Shown here in pieces: positions 13,206-17,441 of a stretch of 36,119 nt of DNA. This stretch comes from a virus. The first letter of the stretch is position 1; each line of letters opens with the position of its first letter. The position numbers and the translations under genes are program-made. The stretch lies in IMG/VR virus record IMGVR_UViG_3300017782_000079, positions 1 to 36,119 of that record. The stretch is one strand, 5' to 3'. The notes beneath the pieces were generated by a model. It saw only the letters and a list, made by a program, of their open reading frames with translations. It searched no databases and had not been told where the DNA came from.

Positions 13206-13249
13206 TTAATTATTATTATTATCACTTACGTTTAAATAATAATAATTAA
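13206..13249 (-). promoter_or_regulatory. Intergenic hairpin with conserved loop (copy 4)
   Basis: A 15-bp perfect stem (13206-13220 with 13235-13249) has the 14-nt loop TAAACGTAAGTGAT on the minus strand. The loop core AAAC-(G/T)-T-(A/T)-AGTGA matches copies 2 and 3, while the stem is a different TTA/ATT-rich sequence. It overlaps the stop of the VWA-like gene (TAA at 13246-13248). Confidence 0.75.
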
Positions 13250-14124
13250 ACATGGTTGAACCACTTAGGTGGCTTTGCTATTGTTTGAAGTGCTTTTTCT
13301 AGTCCGTCGATAGTATCGGCATCGGTTTTGCAGAATCGTTGTTCTACTGCATGGATTAGATTTAATTCGCGCTTATATGTATCTGTGGTTTCTACTTGAT
13401 AACCTAGACTCCCATCAAACCCATACACTTTTTCCATGAGTCCGAACATAAAGTCGCGGAATAATCCGGGTAGGCCGGCAGTCATAAGCCTATGTACATC
13501 AAGCGGTTCGTTTGCTAGCTTAAATGGTATAGATATACCAAATCTATTCCAGTTTTTGCTACCACTATATCCGGCAAAATTGTAAGCAATAACCTCGACA
13601 CCGTAGCCAAGTTTTGTAATAACATCACAAATGCATGCTAGCGTAGCTCCAAGTCTTGCAAAATCTTTTTCCTTGTGACCACATGCTATTGCCATGTTCA
13701 TACCAATACGAACATTTGCACGCTTAGACTTGCGAATTGTAGTTTCCCAATATTGGTCGCTACCACCCATTAATCTCGACATACTTAAGTCGTCGCCGTC
13801 GTCTCTGCGAACTCGTTTACGCTTACATGACAAACCCATGCCGGCAAACTTAGATACGTCGAGTCTAGTGTCTATGCTAGAACGAAGTTTTTGGTATGTC
13901 TTCATCATAGCATCCGATGTTCTGCCGACCATCAAAGCGCGTTGAACATTTTCGCGCCCTACAACATGCTTGCCGTATTGCCATGTTTTTGTACGTTTAT
14001 GAGTGTACAAATCATTGTCGTCAATAATGTCTAGCATTGTTTTTACGTTGGGAATTTGCACTACGGCATGTTTACCTTCGTATTGGTCGTCGATAATTTT
14101 TGGTTCTAGAATTTGCATACTCAT
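13246..14124 (-). CDS. VWA-like (DUF7192-like) partner of the AAA+ ATPase
   Basis: The 292-residue protein has a basic loop (CKRKRVRRDDGDD, about 100-112), then strand-helix-strand ANVRIGMNMAIACG (136-149), FARLGATLACICDVI and GYGVEVIAYN (173-182). This is the alternation of a von Willebrand factor A domain, but the D-x-S-x-S metal site is replaced by N-M-A-I-A, as I recall in phage DUF7192 proteins. It starts one base after the AAA+ gene, with its ribosome site inside that gene. The MoxR-VWA pairing suggests an ATPase-driven remodelling complex; the target is unknown. Confidence 0.65.
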   Translation of the reverse strand: MSMQILEPKIIDDQYEGKHAVVQIPNVKTMLDIIDDNDLYTHKRTKTWQYGKHVVGRENVQRALMVGRTSDAMMKTYQKLRSSIDTRLDVSKFAGMGLSCKRKRVRRDDGDDLSMSRLMGGSDQYWETTIRKSKRANVRIGMNMAIACGHKEKDFARLGATLACICDVITKLGYGVEVIAYNFAGYSGSKNWNRFGISIPFKLANEPLDVHRLMTAGLPGLFRDFMFGLMEKVYGFDGSLGYQVETTDTYKRELNLIHAVEQRFCKTDADTIDGLEKALQTIAKPPKWFNHV

Positions 14125-14125
14125 A

Positions 14126-15331
14126 TTATTTACTCTCCTTTAATAATCCGTTAACATTAACTTTACTCAGTTCCTCTTTCGTCCACCCTGTAGTTACAAT
14201 GTCGAGAAACTGCTTATTTGATTTGCCTGCTAGCCTCCATGTTTGGCCGTCAAGAAACAACCTCGTGCTAATGGTACGTCTAACATGCTCACTCTTGCAT
14301 TGGTCTCGAAGTTTCCAGAGTACATTTGCCATGTCAGTAAAATCTCCGGCTAATGCACGTTCTACGTTTCTGTCGTAATCGACATGAACTTTGACTGCTT
14401 GCAGTCTGTCTAAGGTCGCTAGGTCTAGTTGACCTCTACCGGCGAACTCGAAGTCGTTGCCGTCACCCCATGTATTACTTGCTACTGCTACATGAAAGTC
14501 GTCGTGTTTCTTGGCTACCGGATTGTCCTTGTCGTTTGGAGTTGCTAGCACACCCTGATTGTCGAAGACACTATTAAACACTAGGCCACAATTAGCATCG
14601 AAGCCGTCAAACTCGTCGAGACATAGGAATGAACCATTCCTAAACGACCTTGCTACTGCGCCGTCAATAAACGTGCCGTCGAATGTCATTCGCCCTGTCA
14701 TATGTGATTCTGTGACTCCGGCGCTACCTTTGAGATATTCGTAGTTATCTTCGTCGGTATTAAAGCCTAGTGCATCAGCACATTGTTCGATGAGAAATGA
14801 TTTGCCGGTTCCACTTGGCCCACATAACCACACTCTCTTGAAATGCTTAAGGCATTCTAGCACAAATGGAAACTGCTTATGCTTTAAGCCATCGGTTTTT
14901 TTAACCTCGACGTCGTTAATCTTGACGTACACCGGGTTCTGTAATTCCTTTAGTTTGTCGTCAATTAACTGATTCATTTTGGTTGTTTCCTCGGCAACAC
15001 CCTCAATAAAAGTATCTCTGATACTCTCGGTTCGTTTGTAAATGTCGTCTCCAAGTTTCTCTGCTACCTTGTCAGCTAGCATGTCTTCTAGGCTACCACT
15101 TGGCGCCGTCTGTGGTTGCGGTTGCGGTGTTGGTGCTTCCGGTCTCCTCGGTGTAGTCTCTTCCGGCGGTGTTGGAACTCTGTTGTCGACTAGAAAGTCT
15201 ATCAGTTCGTACTGCTTAGCTGATTGTACCCAAGAACTAGCCTTGTCAAGTTGTCGACACTTAGTGATAGCTAGTGTTTTAATTCTGCTATGTTTCATAG
15301 CATCTAATTCCATTCTTGTATAGTTTCCCAT
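14126..15331 (-). CDS. MoxR-like AAA+ ATPase
   Basis: The 401-residue protein has a small N-terminal helical domain (residues 1-51), a Pro/Thr/Gln-rich linker (52-78), a predicted coiled region (80-132) and an AAA+ core. Walker A is GPSGTGKS (171-178), Walker B FLCLDEFD (235-242) and sensor 1 ASNTWGDG with N286. The GRGQLDLATLDRL region holds the arginine-finger candidate R309, and RRTISTR is a sensor-2 candidate. It resembles MoxR/CobS-type ATPases, which act with VWA proteins, here the next gene. AAGGAG precedes the ATG. Confidence 0.88.
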   Translation of the reverse strand: MGNYTRMELDAMKHSRIKTLAITKCRQLDKASSWVQSAKQYELIDFLVDNRVPTPPEETTPRRPEAPTPQPQPQTAPSGSLEDMLADKVAEKLGDDIYKRTESIRDTFIEGVAEETTKMNQLIDDKLKELQNPVYVKINDVEVKKTDGLKHKQFPFVLECLKHFKRVWLCGPSGTGKSFLIEQCADALGFNTDEDNYEYLKGSAGVTESHMTGRMTFDGTFIDGAVARSFRNGSFLCLDEFDGFDANCGLVFNSVFDNQGVLATPNDKDNPVAKKHDDFHVAVASNTWGDGNDFEFAGRGQLDLATLDRLQAVKVHVDYDRNVERALAGDFTDMANVLWKLRDQCKSEHVRRTISTRLFLDGQTWRLAGKSNKQFLDIVTTGWTKEELSKVNVNGLLKESK

Positions 15332-15959: not shown

Positions 15960-16423
15960 TTTTGGTTAAAGTTATATACCCATCTTAAAAATGGTCGGTC
16001 TTTAGTCCATGTATCTAAAACTATCAGTTGTTTTAAATCCCTGTTATTAATAAACCATCTACCAAGGGTAAATTCAATTTCTGCGTCTTCTAATTCAAAG
16101 CTACCGCTTTGCCATCTTTCAAATTGCTCAATACCTAGCCTATTTTCCATATCAGTCATATAATGGTCGGTTTCCTCGTCGTAATGATTCTCCCAATTAG
16201 TTCTTGCTATCTCTCTTAATAGGTCGACATTAAGCTTATTTTTCAGCGCCGTACTCGTTTCCATGTCTGTCCTAAAGCCGACGAGCTTTCTTTGCCATGT
16301 ATAGTCTCCATTTGTAATCTCGACAGAAACAACAGGGTGTTTCTCTTTGATATTGTAAAGATAATCCGAGGGGTTATCACTTTTAATATTGGGTGTTATT
16401 ATTGCTTCTATATTGTTCTTCAT
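15956..16423 (-). CDS. Hypothetical protein, 155 residues
   Basis: The protein is acidic and rich in Trp and aromatic residues, with probable beta strands (KHPVVSVEITNGDYTWQRKL) and helices (NVDLLREIARTNWENHYDEE). No catalytic signature is seen. GGAG lies eleven bases before the ATG, with a GGGTGTT repeat unit (reverse sense) between. It is the second gene of the leftward operon. Confidence 0.75.
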   Translation of the reverse strand: MKNNIEAIITPNIKSDNPSDYLYNIKEKHPVVSVEITNGDYTWQRKLVGFRTDMETSTALKNKLNVDLLREIARTNWENHYDEETDHYMTDMENRLGIEQFERWQSGSFELEDAEIEFTLGRWFINNRDLKQLIVLDTWTKDRPFLRWVYNFNQN

Positions 16424-16533
16424 AGGGTGTTTACTCCATTTGTAACGGCTATGGTTTTGGGTGTTCTTGCTGTTACACTCTATGCCGTCGTTATAGGGTG
16501 TTCTAGCACAATTTTTTGTCTTAGCTGGGTGTA
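16335..16533. repeat. GGGTGTT repeats, about 34-bp phased
   Basis: GGGTGTT occurs at 16335, 16391, 16425, 16459 and 16496, with GGGTGTA at 16527. Successive spacings are 56, 34, 34, 37 and 31 bp, the last five lying on one face at about three helical turns. They span the start of the leftward gene at 16423 and the non-coding region upstream. Candidate operator or iteron array. Confidence 0.5.
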
Positions 16534-16697
16534 ATACTACGTATTACTCCCATAGGTTGAAGTCGCTCGGATAGGTCGCATTTCGGTCTATGCCGAGGGT
16601 ATAGAAGCCTAGCTAGGAATCGAACCTAGCTATCCCAAAGGGATAGAGCCGTCTCTAGGCTTTGCCGGACTTGCCGGTGTATGAGTACGCGCCTTAT
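16424..16697. other. Non-coding, structured GC-rich region
   Basis: No convincing gene is present in these 274 bases. From left to right: repeat units, a strong hairpin (GTAATAC/GTATTAC, 16531-16547, extended by GGG/CCC), a second hairpin (CTCGG-ATAG / CTAT-G-CCGAG, 16566-16597), the tRNA-like element (16605-16662) and a TTGCCGG direct repeat. A 27-residue hydrophobic plus-strand frame (16451-16534) has no ribosome site. The region probably makes a structured leftward leader or small RNA. Confidence 0.6.
16605..16662 (-). ncRNA. D-armless tRNA-like structure
   Basis: On the minus strand AAGCCTAG (16662-16655) pairs with CTAGGCTT (16612-16605) as an 8-bp acceptor-like stem. Inside lies a T-arm with stem CTAGG/CCTAG and the canonical loop TTCGATT. 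A second hairpin, CTATCCC-TTT-GGGATAG, sits in the anticodon-arm place; drawn with a 7-nt loop it would show UUU but C at the U33 position. The D-arm is reduced to 8 bases and no CCA is encoded. It is therefore not a standard tRNA. Confidence 0.45.
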
Positions 16698-16946
16698 CTA
16701 TACGAACGCGTCCATAGGCATTTCGCCGTTCTCGTCGAGAAGTGCTAGCATTCCGTCTTGAGCGGTGAGCCATGCTTCCTCGCGTAGTTCAGCTTCGCGT
16801 TTCTTGGTGTACGTACACGTAGGAAAGTCAGCACGAAACTCTTCGTCGTAAGCTAGAAGAGCCTGTTCTTCGCGTGGTGTGCATACGTCTGTATGCTTGG
16901 GTGTCTGTGCGTTCTGGGTGTTCGAGTTTTGTATGATTGTTATCAT
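16698..16946 (-). CDS. Small acidic protein, first gene of the leftward operon
   Basis: The 82-residue product has a polar N-terminus (IQNSNTQNAQTPKHTDVCTP) and an acidic helical remainder (REEQALLAYDEEFRADF, then REAELREEAWLTAQDGMLAL). CAGGAG precedes the ATG. Base composition is markedly GC-richer than the structural genes. Acidic small early proteins may act as DNA mimics or host inhibitors, but nothing here proves that. Confidence 0.7.
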   Translation of the reverse strand: MITIIQNSNTQNAQTPKHTDVCTPREEQALLAYDEEFRADFPTCTYTKKREAELREEAWLTAQDGMLALLDENGEMPMDAFV

Positions 16947-17278
16947 GGTTTTTCTCCTGTTCTACGCATAGGGTGGTATCCTTACGCGTAAGTTCGTTAG
17001 TTTGAATCCGACTGAAACTGTCCGTCGGCGACATCCAAACTTAAGCATGAAAGCTAGGCAAAACCTAGCGAAACTTATATAACCGTCGGCTATAAGGCTC
17101 AAACGTAGGCAAAACTAGGGCAAATGGTCGCAAAGATATGAATGATTGCGCCTAGCGAGGAGAGAGCCAACGCGAAACGCGAACTCAACGAGAATCGAGT
17201 GAGTCGTCCGGGAAACGAGCCGGGTGTGCATACGTATATAACGTTCCACACATTTTTTACACAGTTTTTTAGTGCCTC

Positions 17279-17340: not shown

Positions 17341-17371
17341 GGTTTTATATCTAACAATACTAACACTTAAT

Positions 17372-17437
17372 AGCAATGCCATATTTATAAAATGGCTTTG
17401 CCATAGCTTTGCTATAGCTTAGCTATAGCCTTGCCAT
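17372..17437 (-). repeat. 11-bp iteron array matching those in the replication gene
   Basis: Read on the minus strand from 17437: ATGGCAAGGCT, ATAGCTAAGCT, ATAGCAAAGCT and ATGGCAAAGCC (17427, 17416, 17405, 17394 as left ends). Then comes an AT-rich unit and a degenerate ATGGCATTGCT at 17372-17382, still in 11-bp register. The consensus AT(G/A)GC(A/T)A(G/A)GC(C/T) is the same as the three iterons at 7851-7883. Confidence 0.8.
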
Positions 17438-17441
17438 GCAT

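Follow-up and report, generated by a model that had tools for sequence, protein, structure and literature searches.

The mascRNA and menRNA of animals, small tRNA-like RNAs at the 3' ends of lncRNAs of the MALAT1/NEAT1 type, are excised by RNase P and RNase Z, and their fold rests on a T stem-loop together with two guanines of the D-loop (PMC11693755). They are further distinguished by a long anticodon-like stem with a compact loop and by the absence of the linkers of the tRNA junction (PMC11693755). In MALAT1 the upstream RNA acquires its 3' end through the RNase P cut at the tRNA-like structure (PMC11693755; PMC4919922), and mascRNA has, in addition, a trans-acting role in animal cells (PMC9976931). 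In the literature searched, which was covered in part, the mascRNA-type fold has so far been described only in animals, and no phage or bacterial mascRNA-like RNA is described.

The CI RNA of phage P4 is a leader RNA processed by RNase P. Further phage RNAs that serve as RNase P substrates are the C4 antisense RNA of P1 and P7, the M3 RNA and the gene 32 mRNA of T4 (PMC11143913).

Here we describe a tRNA-like element from an uncultured virus, encoded in a DNA stretch of 36,119 nucleotides that constitutes the IMG/VR record IMGVR_UViG_3300017782_000079 (hereafter the window). The window codes for a P22-like portal, an SU10-like capsid protein and a phage terminase, and no close cultured phage relative was found for it.

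The tRNA-like element and its arms

The first-pass annotation of the window had described a D-armless element of 58 nt, with an 8-bp acceptor-like helix, a 7-bp hairpin, a TTCGATT T-arm and eight bases in the place of the D-arm, and this description was confirmed on the minus strand at 16662-16605 (Table 1). The minus strand reads AAGCCTAG-AGACGGCT-CTATCCC-TTT-GGGATAG-CTAGG-TTCGATT-CCTAG-CTAGGCTT, and its arms are an 8-bp acceptor-like stem, an 8-nt linker (AGACGGCT), a 7-bp hairpin and a canonical T-arm of 5 bp and 7 nt, with no variable loop.

Table 1. Features of the leftward operon and of the tRNA-like element (positions are those of the window).
Feature	Position	Strand	Remarks
Conserved leader, ~320 nt, upstream of ORF1	16947..17268	-	blocks AAAACTGTGTAAAAAATG and GTTGAGTTCGCGTTTCGCGTT
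ORF1, first gene of the leftward operon	16698..16946	-	conserved small acidic protein, 82 aa, pI 4.3
ATACAC motif in the spacer from ORF1 stop to element	16677..16682	-	found before the element in each relative examined
Whole tRNA-like element	16605..16662	-	sequence, folding, conservation in relatives
Acceptor-like stem, 5' strand, AAGCCTAG	16655..16662	-	pairs with 16605-16612; 98.9% of cells paired; double changes at 4/8 pairs
Linker AGACGGCT replacing the D-arm	16647..16654	-	GG in every relative, elbow G18G19-like
Middle anticodon-arm-like 7-bp hairpin, CTATCCC-TTT-GGGATAG	16630..16646	-	stem covaries, loop unconserved
T-arm, CTAGG-TTCGATT-CCTAG	16613..16629	-	loop TTCGANT invariant, stem covaries
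Acceptor-like stem, 3' strand, CTAGGCTT	16605..16612	-	covariation alignment
3' trailer C-W-A-T, directly past the acceptor stem	16601..16604	-	conserved; CCA not encoded
AAA_5 ATPase, same operon, downstream	14126..15331	-	syntenic anchor for relatives

The minimum free energy fold of the window element is close to the described cloverleaf, and at -23.9 kcal/mol, against -16.9 +/- 3.1 for shuffled sequences (z -2.2), its fold energy alone is only moderately unusual. A descriptor that combined a TTCRA loop, a T-stem with 5/5 pairs, an acceptor with 7/7 pairs and a 6-bp middle hairpin matched the window at exactly one place; at least one match was obtained in 2 of 400 dinucleotide-shuffled windows. 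Neither in the window nor in 21 related loci did ARAGORN predict a tRNA, and a search of Rfam at curated cut-offs returned no match in the window. The features of a functional tRNA that are absent are the D-arm and a 7-nt anticodon loop with U33, the window element having a C at the U33 position.

Location of the element within a conserved operon

The annotation had placed the element in a leftward leader. As a refinement, it lies outside the 5' leader itself, downstream of ORF1, and begins 36 nt past the ORF1 stop codon. In every relative examined it is situated 17-47 nt past the ORF1 stop and upstream of the AAA_5 ATPase gene, with the genes between the element and the ATPase varying from phage to phage. 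Given this fixed position and the differing downstream genes, the leader, ORF1 and the element form a constant module whose followers are exchanged. The leader co-occurs with the element in those relatives whose contigs cover both.

The interval from ORF1 to the element has no predicted promoter-like or terminator-like site on the minus strand, and the element should therefore belong to the ORF1 mRNA. The ATACAC motif was considered as a promoter and found wanting, as it is accompanied by no sigma-70-like site and its spacing to the element ranges from 3 to 26 nt.

ORF1 itself belongs to no Pfam family and its PHROG matches are weak, at chance level; we regard it as a candidate early host-takeover protein. 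In the relatives it is preceded by a strong Shine-Dalgarno site. Further downstream, a DUF7192 protein (13246-14124, minus strand) adjoins the AAA_5 ATPase, and both are conserved downstream of the element. Distant relatives of the ATPase occur in Staphylococcus, Listeria and Mycobacterium phages, where some are annotated as 'porphyrin biosynthesis'.

Conservation and covariation in related viruses

Relatives were collected by two scans anchored on the AAA_5 ATPase, which yielded 30 and 37 loci from largely the same contigs, and further contigs entered the count of elements through pattern scans. The same element was recovered in about 40 related uncultured viral contigs, representing 28 distinct sequences of 55-64 nt, and an equivalent element in the same orientation is present in every related locus that reaches far enough upstream of the ATPase. 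When 24 whole records were searched with a covariance model, 19 contained exactly one copy in the sense orientation. The remaining five comprised three contigs that end near the ATPase, locus L062, which encodes an ATPase homologue of 37% identity and is without the element, and locus L028, with an element that diverges too far for the model and that was located by hand. Weak matches also appeared on the opposite strand at the sites of the elements, as a consequence of the self-complementarity of their stems.

The main alignment comprised 23 distinct elements fitted to the covariance model, and leans towards the structure of the model. The annotation had held that absence of conserved pairing in related phages would speak against the element, and the opposite was found: standard pairs occupy 99.3% of the pair cells, and 12 of the 20 pairs display changes on both sides. 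All three stems covary: the alignment scores 0.319 for covariation, compared with 0.092 +/- 0.012 when shuffled and no more than 0.060 when the pairings are slid, and RNAalifold, unaided, predicts the identical 20 pairs. A second alignment, which includes the most divergent elements and was made by hand, a procedure that favours pairing, had 188/192 paired cells in the acceptor, 163/163 in the middle hairpin and 120/120 in the T-stem, the best of 1000 shuffles reaching 173, 136 and 107 respectively. The T-stem, for instance, occurs as CUAGG/CCUAG, GUAGG/CCUAC, AGGGG/CCCCU, GCAAG/CUUGC, AGCAG/CUGCU and GC(U)AGG/CCUGC. A covariance model trained on only 14 similar elements recovered divergent ones at the syntenic place (L017 at 1e-10, L048 at 9e-7, L060 at 1e-5, L019 at 0.0015 and L029 at 0.003). 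By these sequence comparisons, conservation among relatives is what carries the element far beyond chance, and it is clearly kept by selection on RNA structure.

Constraint is distributed unevenly over the element. The T-loop is UUCGANU in all elements and is closed by a G-C pair, and the linker, 5-10 nt in length, always includes GG. The trailer reads C-[U/A]-A-U in most of the 28 distinct elements (C in 26/28, W in 26/28, A in 22/28 and T in 25/28). The hairpin abuts the T-arm with a gap of 0 nt in most elements (4 nt in L019 and 1 nt in L029). The loop of the middle hairpin drifts freely through UUU, UUC, UAAA, AAA, GUA, GUC, GAC, GCUUAG and others, and, because this loop is not conserved, both decoding and a function as a decoy for anticodon nucleases are unlikely.

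Pattern scans for CCCTTTGGG followed by the T-arm recovered, besides members of the family, almost only ordinary tRNA genes, many of them with long variable arms; among the matches listed for ATACACA followed by the T-arm there were likewise almost only ordinary tRNA genes besides the family members.

Relationship to known tRNA-like RNAs

When Rfam was searched at lax thresholds, the best match to the window was the mascRNA-menRNA family, RF01684, over its full length (24.9 bits, E=0.01), followed by tRNA-Sec with 17.2 bits. The same family matched the L048 element best, again over the full length (37.3 bits, E=1.4e-6), and that of L026 with 25.5 bits; all three scores lie below the curated gathering cut-off of 42.5 bits. 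Judged by shape as read from the sequences, mascRNA and menRNA, which are cut from the MALAT1 and MEN beta/NEAT1 transcripts and then receive a CCA, are the closest known relatives of the phage element. The shared features are: 1) a length of about 57 nt. 2) A 7-bp acceptor stacked on a 5-bp T-stem with a canonical 7-nt T-loop. 3) A reduced D region with two guanines, represented at the level of sequence by the GG of every phage linker. 4) A long anticodon-like stem, of 7 bp in the phage element, with a compact loop, mostly of 3 nt and often UUU. 5) The absence, in most elements, of the linkers of the four-way junction. 6) A position at the 3' side of another transcript unit.

Unlike the animal RNAs, the element resides in a phage operon, after a protein-coding ORF rather than at the 3' end of an lncRNA of the MALAT1/NEAT1 type; its linker shrinks to as few as 5 nt, so that there is often no D-stem, and it has an extra A-U pair in the acceptor. 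No U-rich tracts that could correspond to the ENE/triple-helix partner of MALAT1 were seen, by eye, upstream of the element. The scores below the cut-off, the phage operon context and the lack of indications of common descent place the element outside the family, as a mascRNA-like architecture, and it appears to constitute a new RNA family. An element of this kind, present in phages as a single copy and conserved with covariation, would show an independent origin of the minimal tRNA shape.

Other described RNAs resemble the element in part. With the D-armless mitochondrial tRNAs it shares the acceptor, an anticodon-like arm, the T-arm and the missing D-arm (PMC7609411); those tRNAs, however, decode and have a conserved anticodon loop, whereas the loop of the element varies, mostly comprises 3 nt on a 7-bp stem, and is accompanied by no variable loop. 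With bacterial tRNA-Sec (RF01852), the second-best Rfam match to the elements at 17-29 bits (cut-off 47 bits), it shares an 8-bp acceptor and a 5-bp T-stem that form a stack of 13 bp, but it is without the D-arm, the long variable arm and the anticodon of that tRNA. The C4 and M3 RNAs and the T4 gene 32 mRNA are, like the element, RNA elements inside phage transcripts, and host RNase P cuts them (PMC11143913). C4, by contrast, is an antisense regulator that works by base pairing, whereas the phage element has an overt tRNA-type T-arm, and the Rfam library, which includes the c4 family, gave no c4 match to the element.

Potential functions of the element

Among the roles suggested by the annotation, a transcript cleaved by RNase P or RNase Z offers the best fit to the intercistronic position, to the acceptor/T-stem stack with its elbow GG, and to the absence of predicted promoters and terminators. 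We give slightly better than even chances to the proposal that host RNase P, and then RNase Z or exonucleases, excise the element and so separate the ORF1 mRNA from the downstream message. We infer the transcription of the element, its cleavage, the enzymes acting on it and the effect on expression as follows. The element would be transcribed leftwards within a polycistronic phage mRNA, just after its first cistron, ORF1. Its acceptor stem would stack on the T-arm, and the invariant UUCGA loop, together with the linker GG, would form an elbow, the whole presenting host RNase P with a substrate resembling pre-tRNA. A cut at, or one nucleotide before, 16661/16662 would form the 3' end of the ORF1 mRNA and detach it from the downstream genes. 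Trimming of the 3' side near 16605 by RNase Z or exonucleases would release a tRNA-like RNA of 57-58 nt and supply the downstream genes with a new 5' end.

RNase P gauges its substrates along the acceptor/T-stem stack, starting from the elbow. The T-loop, T-stem, acceptor stem and GG, which RNase P and RNase Z measure, as does the CCA enzyme, are the conserved parts of the element. The D-loop seems dispensable for RNase P and the T-loop or a similar loop is required (reviewed in PMC4919913). In sequence and structure the element has the form of a bacterial RNase P substrate, with the acceptor/T-stem stack, the T-loop and a single-stranded 5' leader resembling ATACACAACCAA. It is these parts, shared with mascRNA and menRNA and needed by RNase P, that make excision by RNase P and RNase Z the most likely role. 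Against processing stand two features: CCA is not encoded (position 73 is a U, followed by C-U/A-A), bacterial RNase P often preferring a 3' RCCA, and the extra A-U pair results in an 8-bp acceptor, which could shift or slow cleavage. The conserved features of the T-loop would also serve other proteins that bind tRNA, such as TruB, TrmA, EF-Tu or the CCA enzyme, and processing is thus not their sole reading.

The annotation had also proposed a viral tRNA mimic, for which the shape holds up well (covarying stems, invariant T-loop and GG), the variability of the anticodon-like loop having weakened the part of the proposal that invoked a decoy for tRNA-cleaving enzymes of the anticodon type. An excised RNA might act in trans by binding, as a decoy or inhibitor, a host protein that reads the acceptor stem and T-arm, such as a tRNA-modifying enzyme, the CCA enzyme, EF-Tu or a defence nuclease engaging the acceptor end. 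The conserved features are those read by such proteins; the element is the sole tRNA-like gene found in loci where ARAGORN predicted no tRNAs; its early-operon position is usual for host takeover; a defence nuclease that engages the acceptor stem and T-arm exists in Cas12a3 (PMC12851939); and a role in trans has a precedent in the mascRNA of animal cells (PMC9976931). Strict coupling to the 3' end of ORF1, however, is not what is expected of a free-standing gene, and the lack of a predicted promoter or terminator of its own and of an encoded CCA argues in the same direction, leaving a role in trans unlikely overall. The more specific proposal of a free, CCA-tailed small RNA, generated by host RNase P and RNase Z and acting in trans on host translation or tRNA-based immunity as a convergent counterpart of mascRNA, strikes us as rather doubtful. 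Were the RNA stable and trans-acting, it would represent a phage tRNA mimic that tRNA-finding programs have missed.

We consider it similarly unlikely that the element regulates in cis without cleavage, its fold in the nascent transcript controlling pausing, anti-termination or Rho access, or blocking 3' exonucleases on behalf of the ORF1 mRNA. The start of the operon is indeed heavily structured, with the conserved leader and other small hairpins, and a strongly enriched AACACCC motif lies nearby, but a stable hairpin alone needs neither an invariant UUCGANU loop and GG nor a stack of 7/8+5 bp with nothing between the arms, and no terminator-like site occurs at the element. A DNA-level signal (a cruciform, a replication origin or a packaging site) that resembles a tRNA by accident would suit the raised GC content of the region (0.49) and its many small palindromes; it is nevertheless highly improbable, as it is only when read in the direction of transcription that the letters of the T-loop, the GG and the lengths of the arms are under constraint, and G-U pairs, which are mismatches on the other strand, number 5 on the minus-strand RNA against 2 the other way, in what is a small sample. 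The annotation's further suggestion of an attachment-site relic in the 3' end of a host tRNA, which we consider together with a decayed tRNA gene, draws on the use by integrases of the T-arm and acceptor 3' half of tRNA genes and on the canonical T-loop, and it can be practically discarded, because the scanned window proteins include no integrase (Pfam, PHROGs), selection preserves the pairing while the sequence drifts, every relative carries the element once and at the same place, and a scan of about 85,000 species genomes (GTDB) found neither an ATPase relative nor a match to one exact element pattern, divergent copies being outside the reach of that pattern.

If the element is indeed cut in vivo by the tRNA-processing enzymes, as in the favoured excision by host RNase P, the phage would be borrowing tRNA processing as an mRNA-cutting device. 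The conserved phage elements would also offer a small natural set of substrates for finding the minimum of tRNA features required by bacterial RNase P and RNase Z.

Other conserved features of the locus

Several further features were observed around the element. The leader at 16947-17268 contains hairpins and near-invariant blocks (TGTGCAAAAAATGGATGG, GTTGAGTACGCGTTTCGCGTT, GGTAAATTTGG and CGCCGACGG); an Rfam search of it returned no match, and it may hold a promoter and/or a second structured RNA. Before the leader, at 17368-17440 of the window, lies an array of short palindromes made of TATAGC/GCTATA and TGGCAA/TTGCCA units, which is present in most relatives.

The AACACCC motif occurs in six copies on the minus strand of the window at 16335-16922. 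Around the element in 21 loci it is enriched about 83-fold: 74 copies were counted where 0.9 would be expected, with the motif oriented along transcription. It often sits between a GGAG and a start codon, and occurs within ORF1 as well; a translation-initiation site, an RNA-protein site and a DNA site are candidates for its role.

Five contigs (L315, L317, L319, L323 and L325) end within about 420-680 nt downstream of the leader motif, at or just before the element, possibly because assembly broke off at a site that is variable or repetitive. In four loci (L020, L023, L043 and L095) a second hairpin resembling the middle hairpin (e.g. CTATCCCTTTAGGGATAGACC) is found within about 10-20 nt downstream of the element, and a kissing interaction or alternative pairing is possible.
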